Below are positions 33,128-43,822 of a stretch of DNA of 64,000 nt, piece after piece. How positions within the stretch are numbered: position 1 is the first letter of the stretch; every line of letters starts with the position of its first letter. The DNA comes from Bifidobacteriaceae bacterium. GTDB lineage: Bacteria > Actinomycetota > Actinomycetes > Actinomycetales > WQXJ01. Location: NCBI GenBank assembly GCA_031272885.1, contig JAISSX010000060.1, positions 1-64,000 of the forward strand, in the 5' to 3' direction. The notes beneath the pieces were generated by a model, which had not been told where the DNA came from, made no database searches, and was given only the letters and a program-made list of their open reading frames with translations. The position numbers were made by a program, and so were the translations under genes.

Positions 33128-33188
33128 CCGCCCCCCTCCCCTCATCTGCCCCGCCCCCTCCCCTCATCTGCCCCGCCCCCCTCCCCTC
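33128..33188. repeat. 22-bp C-rich tandem repeat (2.5 copies)
   Basis: CCCCTCCCCTCATCTGCC-type units repeat with a 22-bp period (CATCTG at 33143 and 33165), and a third, partial unit runs into the palindromic element. They occupy the cyclase upstream region; no coding potential is seen. Confidence 0.65.
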
Positions 33189-33302
33189 GCGAAAGGTCAC
33201 TTTTCCTGCGCGAAAGGTCAGTTTGGGGCCATGTGAGCGGTCACATCGGGCCAGGATTCCACGGAATTGACCTTTCGTGAGGGAAAAGTGACCTTTCGCG
33301 AG
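33186..33302. repeat. 117-bp cruciform-forming palindromic element at the birA 3' end
   Basis: Perfect 21-bp arms at 33186-33206 and 33282-33302 begin CTCGCGAAAGG. Inside, CGAAAGGTCA (33211-33220) is inverted to TGACCTTTCG (about 33268-33277), and the tip is the 6-bp hairpin ATGTGA/TCACAT (33231-33246). The right arm and centre are translated as the last residues of birA. The termini (TCGCGA) resemble those of the elements at 37641 and 42321, although the core differs. Confidence 0.75.
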
Positions 33303-36294: not shown

Positions 36295-37587
36295 TTGCGC
36301 GCGCGCAAGCCGTCACGCACTGAGCAAGGGAGCTCAAACCCACGCCGAGGCGTTATCGCGCTATACGTGCTGTTCGGCATCTCCGGCATAGCCAACACCA
36401 CCTACGGGGCCCGTTTCCCGTCGATCCGCGACACCTTGGGCATCTCGTCCGCCGCCGTGGCCTGGATCATGGTGGTTTCGGCCGTGGGTGGTCTGACCAC
36501 CATTACCGCCGCCGGGCCGGCCGTGGCCCGCTACGGCGAAAGGATCTGCCACCGCATCGGCACCTACCTCCAGTTGGCGGCCTTCGCCATCATCGTGGCA
36601 GGGCTTCAAGTGCACTCGTTTGGCCTGGTCATGGCCGGAGCGGCGATCAACGGCATGGCCGTTTCGATGGTCTCCATCCCGCAGAACACGGACGCCGCCG
36701 GCGTGGAGCGCCGGGCCGGACACGCCATGTTGCCCAAGTTCCACGGCATGTATGGCTTCGGCTGCCTGGCCGGGGCCGGGTCTTCGGCCGTGGTGTCAAG
36801 CCTAGGGATAGATGCCCGCTGGCACCTGGGCATCGTGGCGGCCCTGACCTGCGCCACCCGGCTGGTGGCCATCAGGTTCTCGCCCATCTCGCAGAGCGTG
36901 GCCGGCTTGGCCAAGAGCCAAGCGGCCGCCAGTTCAACCCTGCCGCCCGGGGCTGCCCCCGTGCGCACCGGCACCATGCGGGCCTGGCTGGAGAAGCGCA
37001 CCCTGGCCATCGCCTTCCTGGTGATGTGTTTCCAGGCGGCCGAATCGGCCGGCAACAACTGGCTGACCCTGGGTGTGGTGGACGGCATCGGTGCCAGCGA
37101 GGCCGTCGCCGCCGCCGTCTTCGCCGCCTTCCAGTTGGCCTACGCCCTGGGCCGCTGGTTTGGCGCCCACATCATCGACAAATTCGGCCGCACCAAGGCC
37201 CTGGCGGGCTCGGCCGTGGTGGCACTGGTGGGGATGGGCTCCTTCTGCCTGGCTCCCGGGGTGGTAGTGATCGCCATCGGCGCCCTGCTGTGGGGGGCCG
37301 GTGTGGCGCTGTCCTACCCGGCCGCCATCGGCGCCGTTTCGGGTGACCCGCTGCGCGCCCCGGGTCGCGTGTCGGTTGTTTCCGCCATCGGTGGTGTGGC
37401 CGGCTGGGGCACCCCGCCCACCATCGGCTGGGCCAGTTCGTTCCTGGGCCTGCGGCCCGCTATCTCGACCCTGACGGTGCTGCTGGTGGTGGCCTTCGGC
37501 CTGACGCGCGCGGCGGCTCACCCACAGTTGCCCATGCGCGTCTACCACCAAAGCGCCGCGTTGTATCACCGCACCATCCACCGCTGA
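36295..37587 (+). CDS. MFS transporter (paralogue of the gene at 34101)
   Basis: 430 residues and about twelve membrane segments. Shared signatures with the gene at 34101 are ARFPSIRDTLGISSAA, KFHGMYGFGCLAGAG and a NNWLTLGVVDG stretch before the seventh segment. The basic N-terminus (RARKPSRTEQ) and a slightly longer C-terminus distinguish it. TTG start with AGGAGG six bases upstream. It follows the SDR gene by 67 bp on the same strand and is likely in one operon with it. The function is inferred as transport of a sugar-like compound related to that of its paralogue. Confidence 0.88.
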   Translation: MRARKPSRTEQGSSNPRRGVIALYVLFGISGIANTTYGARFPSIRDTLGISSAAVAWIMVVSAVGGLTTITAAGPAVARYGERICHRIGTYLQLAAFAIIVAGLQVHSFGLVMAGAAINGMAVSMVSIPQNTDAAGVERRAGHAMLPKFHGMYGFGCLAGAGSSAVVSSLGIDARWHLGIVAALTCATRLVAIRFSPISQSVAGLAKSQAAASSTLPPGAAPVRTGTMRAWLEKRTLAIAFLVMCFQAAESAGNNWLTLGVVDGIGASEAVAAAVFAAFQLAYALGRWFGAHIIDKFGRTKALAGSAVVALVGMGSFCLAPGVVVIAIGALLWGAGVALSYPAAIGAVSGDPLRAPGRVSVVSAIGGVAGWGTPPTIGWASSFLGLRPAISTLTVLLVVAFGLTRAAAHPQLPMRVYHQSAALYHRTIHR

Positions 37588-37640: not shown

Positions 37641-37748
37641 CTCGCGAGAGTACGGTTGTGTAGGTCTGACCAAATCAGACAACGCCGTGACCTGCGAAAA
37701 CGCATTTTGCTCTGAGTGAAACGCCTACATAACCGTACTTTCGCGAGG
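37641..37748 (+). repeat. 108-bp palindromic element, copy 1
   Basis: 24-bp arms (37641-37664 and 37724-37747) start CTCGCGAGAGTACGG and close with CCTACATAACCGTAC. Two positions are not Watson-Crick, and both would be G-U in a + strand RNA. Inside is a 6-bp hairpin GTCTGA/TCAGAC and a second (GCGAAA/TTTTGC). The element lies between the ends of convergent genes (MFS and the ABC permease). The same element occurs at 42321. No protein is evident. Confidence 0.8.
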
Positions 37749-37753
37749 GAGGG

Positions 37754-40120
37754 CTATTCAGTGGCCAGGGCGTAGGCGCTGACCCGGCGGATGCGACGGG
37801 CCACCAACATGGCCACCGCGAAGGCGAACGGCACCAGTACCAGAGCCAGGACCGCCGAACCGGCCGCCCACGGCTGCATGTGGACACTGACAATGCCCAG
37901 CCAGCGGAAGATCCCGCCCATCATGGAACCGAAGGCCAGGTAGCCGGCCAGGGCCCCCGCCAGCACCGCCGCCGCGATCACCGGCATATAGGTGAAGGCG
38001 ATTTGCCGCATCAGTTGGCCGGAGGTGTAGCCCAGGGCCTTCTGGATGCCGAACGAGCGCCGGCGGCGCAGAATCGTGGCGCCCAGCACCAAGTACAGCA
38101 CCAACACCACCACCACGATGGCGATCACCAAGATGGCCGTGGCCACCACGCCAAACAGGTCGCCGTAGGCCCTCAACTGGGCCTGGGCCATGGTCCACAT
38201 TGGCAGGGTGGCCACCACCGCTTCACCGAGGTCCGCCGCCACGGCATCCAGGAAGGGCTCTGCCTGGTCGATGTCATCGAGGTAGACAAAGACCTCGTCG
38301 AACTGGTAGCTGGGCAGCACCCGCTTGATGCCGTCCGTGTTCAGGCCCACCAACATGCCGTATTCGTTCATCGACTGGATCAGGCCGGTCACCAAGTAGT
38401 CGGCCCCTTCACCGCCCAACGACAGCGTCACCGTGTCGCCAATCGTCTTGTCTAGTGTGCTGGCCAGCACCGGGGTCATGACCAGTTCGTTCTCGTGCCG
38501 GGCGTAGCGGCCCTCATAGAGCAGCCGGCCTTCCAGTTGCTCTTGGTCTTCGGTGGCGAATGCCCAGACCGGGTTGCCGTCAATCAGCATGGCCATGGAG
38601 CGGCTGTAGCCGAAGGCCTTGCGCACGCCGGGGCGGGTCTGGACATCGGCCAAGACGGCCTCGCCTTGGGCCGGCTTGACCTGCACCAACGCATCCGGCA
38701 TCTCGCCGGCGATGGTACGGACGAACTCCTCGTTGTTGACCGCTGTGTCGTAGTAGCAGGACAACGCGAACGACGGCATGAAGCTGACCACGGCCACAAT
38801 CAAGGCCACCATGATCATTTGGCCCTTGGCCTGCAGCGCCGTCTTGGCGCCCAGCAACCAGGTGGGTGAGCCGTGAGACCGGTCCAACGGCAGGTTGTTG
38901 CGCCGGAACGAGTGCACCGCGAGACCGGCCCGCAGCGCCGTCAGCGGCGTCAGGCGGCGCAGGCGGGCGGCGGCGGCCAAAGTCACCAACAGCACCGTGC
39001 CCACCACCGCGGCCAGGGTCACGGCGGAGGTGGTGATGTCGAAGCCGGCGGTCCAGATCATGCTGCTCTGGCCCTCCAGCGCCTTGCTGACCGCCGGCAG
39101 CGCGGCGTAGGTCAGGCCGATGCCGGCCCCCACCCCCACCAACGTCAGGCCGGCAAACTGGGCCACAATGCCCCAGGCGATCTGGCCGGAGGTGTAGCCC
39201 ACAGCCTTGAGCGCACCCAGGTTGGCCATCTGTTCTTCGATCGAGTTGCGGACCCGGAAGCGGATCACAATCAGCGCCACCACCAGGATCAGACCGGCGA
39301 ACACCACCATGATGGCGCTCAGGATGTCGACCATGAAGGTGCGGCCATAGCGGGCCGTGCTGTAGCGGTAGGTGCTGATGAAAGACGGCTCGCCGGCGGC
39401 CTGGGCTTCCGCCACGGCCGGGTTGTCGTAGACGAACAGCTTGCTGAAGTCCTGGGTGAATTGGTCACCCAGGTCGCGGTCGGTCAAACTGGCCAGGGCC
39501 AGCGTCACCTGGGTGGCGGGCAGCGCGGCTTCCAGTGCCGTAAAGGTGGCCTGGTTCAAGTAGGCCAGTTGGATGTTGTCCGCCGGGGAACTGAAATAGG
39601 CCTCGTTGGTGAAACCGGCTATCCGGTAGGTCAGCTTCTGGGTGCCAAACGTCATCGTGAAAGCGTCGCCGATGGCGAGGCCGCCACCCACCTTGTCCAT
39701 GTACGGCAGGTAGATGTCGCCATCGCCCAGTGGTTGGGCGCCATCCATGGGGATCAGGCGGTCCAGCGAGTGCGGCGTGTCTACGCTCATGATGATGAGC
39801 GTGGCCGGCACCTCGGCGCCGTTGTAAGGAATGGTCGCTTCAGAGGTCAAGGCCTCCAGGATCTCGACCTGGGTGACGTCCGGGTGGTCCGCCAGCCAGG
39901 TGGCCTGTTCTTCGGTCCACAGGTGGCGCGACTCGCTGACCGCGAAGTGGGGGGCGTTGGCCCGGTCGGCCTGGCGGTCGAAGGCCTTGCCGTAGTCCAG
40001 CAGCATCATCAGGCCCAGGTTCAGCACCAGGGCGGCCAGGGCGGCCACGCCCAGCAGGCCGGCGGCGGCACCCTTGGCGCCACGGATATTGGCCCAGGCC
40101 AGCATCAGTGTGCGGCGCAT
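37754..40120 (-). CDS. FtsX/MacB-type ABC transporter permease
   Basis: About 788 residues: an N-terminal membrane segment (10-35), a large extracytoplasmic domain, three segments with the first FtsX domain (about 265-395), a second anchor near 420-440, another extracytoplasmic domain, and a second FtsX domain at the end (about 660-780). Motifs include NLGALKAVGYTSGQIAWGI and IQKALGYTSGQLMRQIAF, the coupling helices, duplicated. It probably works with the adjacent ATPase to move a peptide or lipoprotein, or to transmit mechanical force. ATG 40120 follows the ATPase stop by two bases; GTGs at 40126 and 40129 are alternatives. Confidence 0.88.
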   Translation of the reverse strand: MRRTLMLAWANIRGAKGAAAGLLGVAALAALVLNLGLMMLLDYGKAFDRQADRANAPHFAVSESRHLWTEEQATWLADHPDVTQVEILEALTSEATIPYNGAEVPATLIIMSVDTPHSLDRLIPMDGAQPLGDGDIYLPYMDKVGGGLAIGDAFTMTFGTQKLTYRIAGFTNEAYFSSPADNIQLAYLNQATFTALEAALPATQVTLALASLTDRDLGDQFTQDFSKLFVYDNPAVAEAQAAGEPSFISTYRYSTARYGRTFMVDILSAIMVVFAGLILVVALIVIRFRVRNSIEEQMANLGALKAVGYTSGQIAWGIVAQFAGLTLVGVGAGIGLTYAALPAVSKALEGQSSMIWTAGFDITTSAVTLAAVVGTVLLVTLAAAARLRRLTPLTALRAGLAVHSFRRNNLPLDRSHGSPTWLLGAKTALQAKGQMIMVALIVAVVSFMPSFALSCYYDTAVNNEEFVRTIAGEMPDALVQVKPAQGEAVLADVQTRPGVRKAFGYSRSMAMLIDGNPVWAFATEDQEQLEGRLLYEGRYARHENELVMTPVLASTLDKTIGDTVTLSLGGEGADYLVTGLIQSMNEYGMLVGLNTDGIKRVLPSYQFDEVFVYLDDIDQAEPFLDAVAADLGEAVVATLPMWTMAQAQLRAYGDLFGVVATAILVIAIVVVVLVLYLVLGATILRRRRSFGIQKALGYTSGQLMRQIAFTYMPVIAAAVLAGALAGYLAFGSMMGGIFRWLGIVSVHMQPWAAGSAVLALVLVPFAFAVAMLVARRIRRVSAYALATE

Positions 40121-40122
40121 CG

Positions 40123-40920
40123 TCACCACCCCATCTCGACCAGGAAGGACCGCAGCTGGGCGTCGCGGGCGGCATCGTCGCCCTGGTATTCACCCAAGTC
40201 CAGGTCGCCCACAATCTGGCCGTCCCGCAAGTAGGCGATCCGGTTGCCGCGCTTGGCGGACTTCAGATCGTGCGTCACCATGACCACCGTCTGACCCTGC
40301 CGGCTGACGCCGGTCAGCACGTCCAGGACGGCGGTGCCACTGGTCTGATCCAGGGCGCCGGTCGGTTCGTCCGCGAACAGGACCTGCGGCTGGTTGATCA
40401 GGCCGCGCACGGTGGCGGCCCGCTGAGCTTCGCCACCGGATACCTGGGCCGGGAACTTGGCCCGGGTGGCGGCGTCGATGCCCACCTGGTCAAACAGGTT
40501 CGCCGCCCGGGCGGCGATGGCGGCCCTGGCCTTGCGACCCTGGCCCAGCAGCAGCCCGGCCGCCATGGCGTTATCCATCAGCGACATGTTGTCCAACAGG
40601 TAAATCTGTTGGAAAACGAAACCGCAGTGGCGCCGGCGGAAGCGGGCCAGTTCGGATTCGCTGAGGCCCACAATGTCGCGCCCGGCAAAGGTGACCTGGC
40701 CCAGGGTGGGCCGGTCCATGCCGCTCAGCGCGTACAGCAAAGTGGACTTGCCGGCGCCCGAGGCCCCCATGATGACGGTGAAGTCCCCGCTCCTGATCTG
40801 CAGGTCCAGGTTCCTCAAGACGTGTTGCTGGACGCCCTCGGTGGAGAACGTCTTGGACAGCTTCTGCGTGGTGATGACCGGCTGACCCGGTTCGATCGGT
40901 TGGATTCGCGGCTGGCTCAT
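40123..40920 (-). CDS. ABC transporter ATP-binding protein (LolD/MacB type)
   Basis: 265 residues. Walker A GASGAGKSTLL, Q-loop FVFQQIYLLDN, signature VSGGEAQRAA, Walker B VLFADEPTGALD and the His switch VMVTHD are all intact. The usual LSGGQ reads VSGGEAQ, as in many LolD-like proteins. With the permease it forms an exporter of the MacB/Lol/BceA class. ATG 40920 has AGGAGG seven bases upstream; the longer frame is unconserved. First in an operon with the permease; a two-component system lies about 1.6 kb away on the same strand, as for antimicrobial-peptide response modules. Confidence 0.92.
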   Translation of the reverse strand: MSQPRIQPIEPGQPVITTQKLSKTFSTEGVQQHVLRNLDLQIRSGDFTVIMGASGAGKSTLLYALSGMDRPTLGQVTFAGRDIVGLSESELARFRRRHCGFVFQQIYLLDNMSLMDNAMAAGLLLGQGRKARAAIAARAANLFDQVGIDAATRAKFPAQVSGGEAQRAATVRGLINQPQVLFADEPTGALDQTSGTAVLDVLTGVSRQGQTVVMVTHDLKSAKRGNRIAYLRDGQIVGDLDLGEYQGDDAARDAQLRSFLVEMGW

Positions 40921-41015
40921 GGTGGTTGCCTCCTTCTTGACCACCATCCTGGGCCAGGGGTTCTGAACCATCCCTTGCGGGATTCTGAACAATCCTTAAC
41001 GAACCCTTAATTCCG

Positions 41016-42299
41016 TTAGCGAGCCGCGTAGGCGGCGATCACCCAGTCGTAGTTCTCCAGTTCAAGCGGGGTGCCGCAGTGTTGGCAGACGCCGTACTGC
41101 TCCAGGCCGACCGCGCCGCCGCAACTGGCACACTGATAGGCCACCGGGTCGGTGAACCAGGCGGCTGAGACCTTCTTCTGCAGGGTCAGGCGAACCCGTT
41201 CCGTCTGGCGCCGCATACGACGGCGCCGCAAACGGGTCAGCCGCAGCTTCACCTTCATGGTGGCCAGGTACCACTCGCCTTCACGGGTGAAACGGCCGAA
41301 CCGCACGTTGCGGATCTGGCATTCGGCCACATCCGCATAGGCCGGCAGCAGGGGCGACAGGTCGCAGTTGACAAACGTCTCGATCTGCTGGGGCGAACTG
41401 GCGTAGTGCACCGCGGCCAGCTTGTTGTCCAGCGACTGGTGCATCGCCTCCAGCGAGAACGCCGGGTCGATGGCGCGGGCACGTTTGGCGAACCGGCGGC
41501 GGGCAAAGGCGCGCGAGCCGCTGTAGCTCAGGCCGATAAAGCAGTAGAGGCAGGCGAAGGTCAAGCACGGGCCCCCCACCACCATGATCGGCAAGGGCGA
41601 GAACAGTTGGTCGATGGTACCCGTGGCCCAGGCGCGGATCAGCTTGTAGGTGGCCGGGAACGAGAAGCAGGCGATGATGGTGTAGCACACCAACAGGAAG
41701 ACGCCCATGTACTGCATGAACTGGTTCTCGCCGAACCAGCGGGCCTGGGTGGCCTTGCCGAAGGCCGCCATCCGTTCCGCAAAGTCGCTGAGCTGAAAAT
41801 TGGTACCGCAGTGGGCGCAGCCCGCGATCAGGGTTTCGGTGGTGTTGATGGCGCCGCAGTTGGGGCAGGGGTATTCGGCGTCGCCGTTGGTGGTACCGGC
41901 CAGGGCGAAGAAGTGCGTGCCGCGGTTGTTGTAGCGGCGCAGTTTGCGTTTACCCCGGTACCAGGTTTGGCGCACCAACAACCGGGTGGCGAACAGGAAA
42001 TCGTACTTGTAGGGGCCGTCTTGCGAACTGCCACCGCCATCGATGTGCCAGACGCCCCGTTTGTCGGGCGGTATCGGGCGGTCGATGAACTCGACCTTCT
42101 GGGTCACACCCAACTGGTCCGCCCGGCCCTTTTCCAGGACCAGTTTGAGGCGGAAGAACGGGGTCAGGCGCTGCGGCGGCGGCCCGCCTTGGCCGCAGTA
42201 GGCGGAGTATTCCTGGGCGAACACATGCAACTGGTCTGTTGGCGCCGAAGCCTCGCGCCAACCCGCTGGGTCCAGGCCACCGGGCGGAGCAACAGTCAC
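41016..42299 (-). CDS. zinc-ribbon Tim44-like membrane protein
   Basis: 427 residues. A soluble N-terminal part (to about 140) comes first. A zinc ribbon CPNCGAINTTETLIAGCAHC (near 148-167) is followed by two membrane segments (about 198-222 and 235-258), then a Tim44/mba1-like domain (FSLEAMHQSLDNKLAAVHYA, FVNCDLSPLLPAYADV) and a C-terminal second ribbon CASCGGAVGLEQYGVCQHC. The fold suggests an inner-membrane scaffold or peptide-binding role; the partner is unknown. Two ribbons flanking a Tim44 domain look unusual to me. GTG 42299 is used. Upstream lies palindromic element copy 2, and the gene separates the ABC exporter from its likely sensor pair. Confidence 0.78.
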   Translation of the reverse strand: MTVAPPGGLDPAGWREASAPTDQLHVFAQEYSAYCGQGGPPPQRLTPFFRLKLVLEKGRADQLGVTQKVEFIDRPIPPDKRGVWHIDGGGSSQDGPYKYDFLFATRLLVRQTWYRGKRKLRRYNNRGTHFFALAGTTNGDAEYPCPNCGAINTTETLIAGCAHCGTNFQLSDFAERMAAFGKATQARWFGENQFMQYMGVFLLVCYTIIACFSFPATYKLIRAWATGTIDQLFSPLPIMVVGGPCLTFACLYCFIGLSYSGSRAFARRRFAKRARAIDPAFSLEAMHQSLDNKLAAVHYASSPQQIETFVNCDLSPLLPAYADVAECQIRNVRFGRFTREGEWYLATMKVKLRLTRLRRRRMRRQTERVRLTLQKKVSAAWFTDPVAYQCASCGGAVGLEQYGVCQHCGTPLELENYDWVIAAYAAR

Positions 42300-42320
42300 C
42301 CCACCAGTCTATTGGCCCCC

Positions 42321-42428
42321 TTCGCGAGAGTACGGTTGTGTAGGCCAAGTGAAATCGGTCAACGCCGTGACCTGCGAAAACGCGTTTCGCCCTGAGCGAA
42401 GCACCTACATAACCGTACTCTCGCGAGG
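42321..42428 (+). repeat. 108-bp palindromic element, copy 2
   Basis: Same length as copy 1 and roughly 80-85% identical. Arms are 42321-42344 and 42404-42427; the two non-Watson-Crick positions are U-G and G-U on +. The inner GCGAAA/TTTCGC hairpin is fully paired here, where copy 1 has one G-U. It lies 22 bp upstream of the Tim44-like gene and about 50 bp after the kinase gene. Confidence 0.8.
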
Positions 42429-42486
42429 GGCTAGGCGAGGGGCTAGGCGAGGGGCTAGGCGAGGGGCTAGGCGACGGGCTAGGCGA
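42427..42486 (-). repeat. five 12-bp tandem repeats that duplicate a stop codon
   Basis: Units near GGGGCTAGGCGA (42427, 42439, 42451, 42463, 42475) each read, on -, as Pro-Leu-Ala-stop in the frame of the histidine kinase. The kinase ends at the stop in the unit starting 42475, and the four further stops follow. The repeat grew out of the gene's own 3' end. Confidence 0.85.
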
Positions 42487-43822
42487 GGGGGAAGCGGAGG
42501 GTGGCCACGAGGCCGGATGGCGGCTCAGCCCCGCCCAATGGCCCGCCCAACGGCACGCCGGATGGCGGGCCGGCGGCATTGGCCAAGGTCAGGGAACCGC
42601 CCATGGCGGCCATGAAGTGGCTGGCCAAGTGCAGGCCCAGGCCCGCCCCCGGCTGCCCGGCCGCTACCGCACCGCGGTAGAACTTCTGCGTCAACAACGG
42701 CAACTCGTCTTCAGCCACGCCCGGCCCCTGGTCCGCCAGCCGCACCACCAGTTCACCACCCTCGATGTCGCCGGCCACCACCATCGGCGTGCCGGCGTAC
42801 TTGTAGGCGTTACTCACCAAGTTGTCGATCACCTGCGCCACCCGCAACGGATCGGCCAGCACCAGGCATTCCGGCAGCGTAAACGGCCCCACCAGGCCGC
42901 GCACGTCCGCCTCACGGATCAGTTGCCCGATGTCGCCCGCCGCCACCGGCACCGGCTCCACCTTCAGTTGGGTCAGGTCCTCCAGGGTGGCGTTGAACAG
43001 GTTGGACACCAGGGTGTCGATCTGGTCCGCCTTGGCCTGGACCGTTTCCAGGCGGCCCCGCACCGCCGGATCGGTCGCCTGAGCCGCCATCAGCTCCGCC
43101 ATCGCCCGGATCGAAGCCACCGGAGTCTTGATGTCGTGGCTGAGCGAGGCCACCAGCTCCTTCTTCGACACCTCAGCCTGGCGCTCGCGGTCGCGGGCGG
43201 CCGCCAGTTCGGTCCGCATCAGGTCGAACGATTCGGTGAAGGCACCGAAACTGCCACCCTTATCCATCAGCAGCGGCGCGTCCAGGTCACCCATGGCCAC
43301 CCGCTGGGCGAAGCCCTGCATGTCATGGAACGGCTTGACCAGGCGCCGGTGCAGGCGCCACAGGAACAGGCCGCAGACCGCACCGGTCAACGCCAACCCA
43401 CCCAGTGCCACTGCCCGCACCCGCGTCACGTAGGCGGCCCGCGCGACATCGGCGGTGTTGACGAAGGCCACTCGCGCCAGCAGCTTGCCGAAAGCCGGAT
43501 CGACCAGGTCAACCACCGTGTCGCCCCTGTTCAGGGCCTCGGACAGGGTGTCGGCCGGGCCGTTCTGACCCACCGGCGAGGTTGAAGCCAAGACCGCGCC
43601 ATCGGGTGCCAAGACCGAGTATTCACCTACCCCAGCCGGCCGCGGCAGGCTGTAGCCCGCCGCACCCAACCGGTCGGCATCGGCTAACAGGGTTTGTGTC
43701 ACGTCGTTGATGGCCGGCAGGTCCACCTTGGCGCCCGGCAGCCGCGGGATCAAGGCCGCCACCACCACGGCCACGGCGGCCAACACCACCACCAGGGCGA
43801 CAGCGTAGCGGCGGGTTTTCAT
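42479..43822 (-). CDS. sensor histidine kinase
   Basis: 447 residues. Membrane segments at 7-25 and 137-155 flank an extracytoplasmic sensor of about 110 residues. A HAMP-like linker (156-210), the phospho-acceptor SLSHDIKTPVAS (His229) and the ATP-binding boxes (IDNLVSNAYKYA, DQGPGV, GAGLGLHLA) follow. It autophosphorylates and passes phosphate to the response regulator. ATG 43822 overlaps the regulator stop by four bases; the longer open frame inside the regulator gene is rejected. Near the end are low-complexity GGPLGGAEPPSG residues. The signal is unknown; position near an FtsX-type exporter suggests envelope stress or peptides. Confidence 0.92.
   Translation of the reverse strand: MKTRRYAVALVVVLAAVAVVVAALIPRLPGAKVDLPAINDVTQTLLADADRLGAAGYSLPRPAGVGEYSVLAPDGAVLASTSPVGQNGPADTLSEALNRGDTVVDLVDPAFGKLLARVAFVNTADVARAAYVTRVRAVALGGLALTGAVCGLFLWRLHRRLVKPFHDMQGFAQRVAMGDLDAPLLMDKGGSFGAFTESFDLMRTELAAARDRERQAEVSKKELVASLSHDIKTPVASIRAMAELMAAQATDPAVRGRLETVQAKADQIDTLVSNLFNATLEDLTQLKVEPVPVAAGDIGQLIREADVRGLVGPFTLPECLVLADPLRVAQVIDNLVSNAYKYAGTPMVVAGDIEGGELVVRLADQGPGVAEDELPLLTQKFYRGAVAAGQPGAGLGLHLASHFMAAMGGSLTLANAAGPPSGVPLGGPLGGAEPPSGLVATLRFPLA

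Follow-up and report, generated by a model that had tools for sequence, protein, structure and literature searches.

A dispersed DNA repeat of inverted arms around a core common to actinobacteria, a probable site of nucleoprotein assembly

The window, as the whole 64,000-nucleotide stretch of Bifidobacteriaceae DNA that was analysed is called here, contains two 108-bp copies of a repeat that is probably a composite DNA site dispersed through the genome, a counterpart in actinobacteria of the BIME-1/RIB elements, on which a nucleoprotein complex would form. Its arms and its core are conserved as modules, the distances between them fall into classes separated by helical turns, and two arm families share the same phase, a combination that argues for a nucleoprotein assembly site. 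According to this model, at least two inverted arms would be recognised by a sequence-specific protein that differs from one arm family to the next, while a second protein would occupy the central core, a site shared across actinobacteria; with arms and core facing the same side of the helix, the arm protein and the core protein could interact and all the bound proteins would join in a single nucleoprotein complex. Recombination or an enzyme acting in trans may have spread the copies, whose role may lie in chromosome organisation or in the insulation of neighbouring transcription units.

The Element in the Window and in Its Genome

The features of the window that are referred to below are the following.

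37641-37748, + strand: family A copy 1 (108 bp), between the convergent genes 36295-37587 (+) and 37754-40129 (-)
37641-37664, + strand: left arm of copy 1
37680-37703, + strand: core of copy 1, CAACGCCGTGACCTGCGAAAACGC, matching the actinobacteria-wide motif
37705-37721, + strand: inner hairpin-like stretch of copy 1, a trait of a subfamily
37725-37748, - strand: right arm of copy 1
42321-42428, + strand: family A copy 2 (108 bp), between the tandem minus-strand genes 41016-42299 and 42479-43822
42321-42344, + strand: left arm of copy 2
42360-42383, + strand: core of copy 2
42405-42428, - strand: right arm of copy 2
33188-33302, no strand assigned: cluster of family B arms (two left, two right, the members of each pair 21 bp apart) with no recognisable core

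Both family A copies, with their 24-bp inverted arms, were re-found where the sequence-only reading had placed them, and they are 86% identical to each other. The arm core GTACGGTTRTGTAG occurs at four sites in the window, all of them in these arms (0.21 expected from shuffles). The family B cluster, whose inner arms are 67 bp apart, adjoins a biotin-ligase-like gene at its 3' end. At 42429-42480 a unit of about 12 bp (GGGGCTAGGCGA) is repeated in tandem; these repeats link copy 2 with the end of the gene beside it and duplicate the last codons of that gene.

At least 48 family A copies with both arms, 107-110 bp long, are present in the genome: 40 full or partial copies were counted by BLAST of the genome, 39 with an exact two-arm pattern and 48 when loci were inspected one by one with mismatches admitted. 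The arms (CTCGCGARAGTACGGTTRTGTAG ... CTACAYAACCGTACTYTCGCGAG) are near-invariant over the copies, while the interior is strongly diverged, up to about half, with the exception of the central core CAACGCYSTGACCTGCGNAAACGC. Copies occur on many contigs, next to host genes, almost exclusively in intergenic positions and mostly adjoining gene 3' ends. With genes called by a simple codon-usage gene finder, 42 copies could be classified, as lying between convergent (16), tandem (22) or divergent (4) gene pairs, the remaining ones being close to a contig end or to a gap in the gene calls; the tandem-gene copies are oriented along transcription in 10 cases and opposed to it in 12, hence with no strand bias. 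The earlier view of a REP/MITE-like, intergenic, multi-copy selected repeat is borne out. Eight genes read into an arm and use its TAG as their stop codon, the common tail being ESTV[V/M].

The same core is found in the same genome with at least five further arm families (B-F), the arms of which are listed here.

Family B arm: CTCACGAAAGGTCAATTCCGT (133 arm matches with at most one mismatch)
Family C arm: TTTTTGGACAC
Family D arm: CACGGATTTACGG
Family E arm: GCCATTTGTCCCAATTGGAC
Family F arm: GAGATGCCCCT

Families B, D and F have in common an extra interior (about GGGCGCCATCGGGCACA) directly before the core and differ in their arms, so that one and the same interior is found within different arms. 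Some arm pairs, 39 or 67-68 bp apart, exist without a core, which is therefore not obligatory. As for the relatives, the match in G016 is limited to the centre of the element, the arms there being CGGTTTGGGCAGTTTG ... CAAACTGCCCAAACCG, and a search with the core pattern, which gave 0 control matches, retrieved, in G005, G006, G014 and others, elements whose arms are different again, together with some core matches in which a clear inverted repeat is missing. In G005 the arm (GCAAAAGTCACAAAT...) forms a tandem array with a 21-bp period on one side of the element and is inverted on the other.

Spacing of Arms and Core

A spacing quantised at about 10.5 bp is a property of B-DNA. In 26 copies of family B the left inner arm lies 44, 54-55 or 64-65 bp from the core and the right inner arm 46, 56-57 or 66-67 bp; these distances are best fitted by a period of about 10.5 bp, with R = 0.97 on the left and 0.98 on the right, and family A, with 44 and 56 bp, has the same phase. 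If the length classes alone are taken as independent, the chance of such an alignment is about 0.008 on the left and about 0.003 on the right; since copies of one family have a common ancestor, only a handful of the length changes count as independent, and the phasing depends on these. Tandem arms are spaced at 21 bp both in family B of the window's genome and in G005. Of the evidence for a joint action of arms and core as double-stranded DNA, the phasing weighs most; with its arms placed at whole helical turns from the core, the element resembles a docking platform for proteins more than an RNA.

Arm Pairing and the Possibility of an RNA

The sequence-only reading had proposed a structured + strand RNA or, alternatively, a 3'-end processing signal. 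Functions of this kind, including that of a bidirectional terminator, would fit the long inverted arms and the placement at gene 3' ends, in more than a third of the classifiable family A copies between convergent genes, and they were suggested by the window copies themselves, in which the two non-Watson-Crick arm positions of each copy (8 and 18 in copy 1, 1 and 18 in copy 2) are indeed all G-U on the + strand and the inner pair, upon re-checking, is G-U in copy 1 and G-C in copy 2. The rule that every mismatch is a G-U on the + strand fails, however, over the family as a whole, in which the arm mismatches of 47 copies comprise 32 G-U, 22 A-C and 14 others (binomial p = 0.22 for G-U versus A-C); with A-C about as frequent as G-U, the idea of a + strand structured RNA essentially fails the test that had been proposed with it.

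The earlier proposal had also looked to further copies for compensatory changes. Such copies are abundant and compensation is nil: at arm positions 8 (GC 22, GT 13, AC 11, AA 1) and 18 (AT 24, GT 14, AC 9), the 47 copies show 0 double-sided changes against 47 one-sided transitions, with no AT at position 8 and no GC at position 18, and the avoidance of double-sided change has a Fisher p of 0.015 and 0.028, respectively. Had the stem been selected as RNA, changes on both sides would be expected in some copies, and that none are seen argues against it. The two positions are 10 bp apart, and a transition is found in a single arm of an element, never in both. The inner hairpin, moreover, is confined to about 20 of the 47 copies, and the same stretch in most of the others folds no better than shuffles; the copies lack an orientation bias, and both the helical-turn spacing and the direct tandem arms would be meaningless for a stem-loop. 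A + strand RNA or a terminator was thus rejected as an explanation on the grounds of the mismatch balance, the missing compensation, the restricted inner hairpin and the lack of strand bias, and we regard it as highly unlikely. From the original description of a "mobile or selected structured element", the multi-copy selected repeat stands and the RNA is not supported.

Other readings of the inner sequence fared no better. A mini-hairpin in the core (GCR-NNAA-YGC) shows no R-Y covariation (GC 70, AC 35, GT 16, AT 9), which likewise weighs against an RNA. A peptide encoded by the core (NALTCENA) was discarded because its ACC is invariant in 48 copies and so not codon-like, and the complementarity of the flanks, pyrimidine-rich on the left and purine-rich on the right, is not clearly above that of shuffled partners. 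Rfam gave no match overlapping either window copy, even at E <=5, and the core string appeared in no relevant context in a literature search, in agreement with the earlier statement that no named family fits.

Insertion Sites and Mobility

In G001, which belongs to the same genus, the alignment (94%) reaches the site of copy 2 and is followed by about 160 bp of unrelated sequence, the element being absent; G001 likewise has no element after asnC. In G006, G010, G011 and G012, trpD and asnC are close convergent neighbours with no element between them, while in the window's genome the two genes are apart and each has an element at its 3' end. By these alignments, the element is absent from the relatives at both loci compared and is located at end points of rearrangements.

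The copies could have been spread by a trans-acting transposase, which is the main rival to the nucleoprotein model and could also belong to the same story. The element would then be a non-autonomous transposon (MITE), with the arms as terminal inverted repeats for a transposase supplied in trans, the tandem arms as extra transposase sites and the core as an internal host-factor or enhancer site; the two readings may overlap, the difference lying in the purpose of the complex. As in MITEs, the elements are short, non-coding, dispersed and recent, here at both loci examined, with inverted arms at both ends plus sub-terminal repeats, and a transposon would also explain the eight cases in which an arm overwrites a gene end and the interiors common to elements with different arms. 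By contrast with MITEs, a target-site duplication of at least 4 bp next to the arms was found in 0 of 47 copies, the loci read have no transposase beside the arms, and no arm-bounded autonomous transposon or parent element with the same ends was seen in 20 further loci read. In dead copies arms and interior should decay together, whereas here the arms are better kept than the interior around a conserved, phased core, and this core is also found without the arms. A MITE is, on balance, an unlikely explanation.

Two rearranged loci bear on a further possibility. The family A copy at C61:17273 (L128 1490-1861) is broken within the core and joined to a fragment of a DUF4143 gene, and on C9 (L039 2001-3667) two near-identical (97%-like) family A copies in direct orientation flank an AAA_14/DUF4143 gene. 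Together with the copies at both ends of the broken trpD/asnC junction and the cores near integrase genes in viral contigs, these loci would suit site-specific recombination, with the core as the point of exchange in a site resembling an integron attC or a phage att. This interpretation appears most improbable, as the broken copy is a single one, the core has AACGC repeats in direct orientation and no inverted half-sites, and cores are found near both tyrosine and serine recombinase genes as well as upstream of carD, mraZ and dnaN. Integron attC sites are likewise palindromic, of similar size and with conserved ends and a variable middle; unlike in them, the centre is conserved here, the attC end boxes are not seen and no cassette array was seen at the loci examined. 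An element is close to only 3 of the 11 DUF4143 genes, and these ATPase-nuclease genes are not convincing as mobilisers.

The Core Across Actinobacteria

Judged by its matches, the core is an actinobacteria-wide motif. Its consensus, (AA)CGCYSTGACCTGCGNAAACGC, is the conserved centre between the outer arms and has 105 matches in the window's genome versus 3 for the reversed control; the pattern SYGACCTGCGNAAACG in 246 genomes of the phylum is far above its reversed control (2 control matches). One relative genus at the level of the class has several core copies per genome, and among the matches listed in a scan of named genomes mainly actinobacteria are found. In many Streptomyces and Kitasatospora records (e.g. 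L130, L131, L216) the core lies 60-61 nt upstream of the carD start codon, in a position directly upstream of the likely -35 region; it is also found upstream of mraZ (about 119 nt) and of a dnaN (179 nt), and in viral contigs close to integrase and resolvase genes. Beyond this bacterial family the core prefers regions upstream of genes, unlike the element with its 3'-end placement. Inverted repeats flanking the core at cellular sites outside the family reach a score of >=8 in 20% of cases, versus 6% with swapped flanks, a moderate enrichment.

No named binding protein was found for the motif, and BLAST against phages and plasmids returned short, chance-level matches only. It is conceivable, as a tentative extension of the nucleoprotein model, that a phylum-wide actinobacterial DNA-binding protein reads (AA)CGCYSTGACCTGCGNAAACGC and that in these Bifidobacteriaceae its site is the fixed centre of modular chromosomal platforms, with arms that are read by family-specific partner proteins and have to be on the same face; the elements would then be a class of nucleoprotein repeats with exchangeable arms, of which no description in actinobacteria was found. 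A short motif common to the upstream regions of Streptomyces carD, mraZ and dnaN and to intergenic regions of actinophages is in any case exposed by these comparisons. In four viral contigs (L261, L262, L287, L312) and in L146, several short direct and inverted repeats surround the core and are specific to the locus, for example GTTTCACC, GTGACCGAT, GCACAACAC and GCCGCTACA.

Relation to Known Repeats

The nearest known kind is that of the BIME-1/RIB elements of enterobacteria, which are likewise about 100 bp long, have many intergenic copies near 3' ends and are built from species-specific repeat units. In BIME-1, inverted REPs flank an IHF-binding segment (PMC2817692), and the layout of two inverted units around a segment is the same here, with the conserved, phased core, a putative protein site, in the place of the IHF site. 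The units of BIME-1/RIB, however, are short stem-loops tagged with GTAG/CGTC at the foot, whereas the arms described here are linear sites of 21-24 bp; family A ends in GTAG like the BIME-1/RIB tag and families B-F do not. Because the arms are not tagged stem-loops, the element is not classed as a BIME-1/RIB, from which it also differs in having several arm families around one core and a core conserved across the phylum. Actinobacteria would thus gain a BIME/RIB-like element with a readable design of arms, core and helical register.

Several family B elements (L439, L393, L415) carry an internal palindrome, GTCATCCCGGACTTGATCCGGGATC, which is absent from family A and resembles repeats of the CGTC type, known mainly from alphaproteobacteria. 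Unlike the CGTC-type REPs as such (PMC3733652), the palindrome is an occasional passenger of family B.
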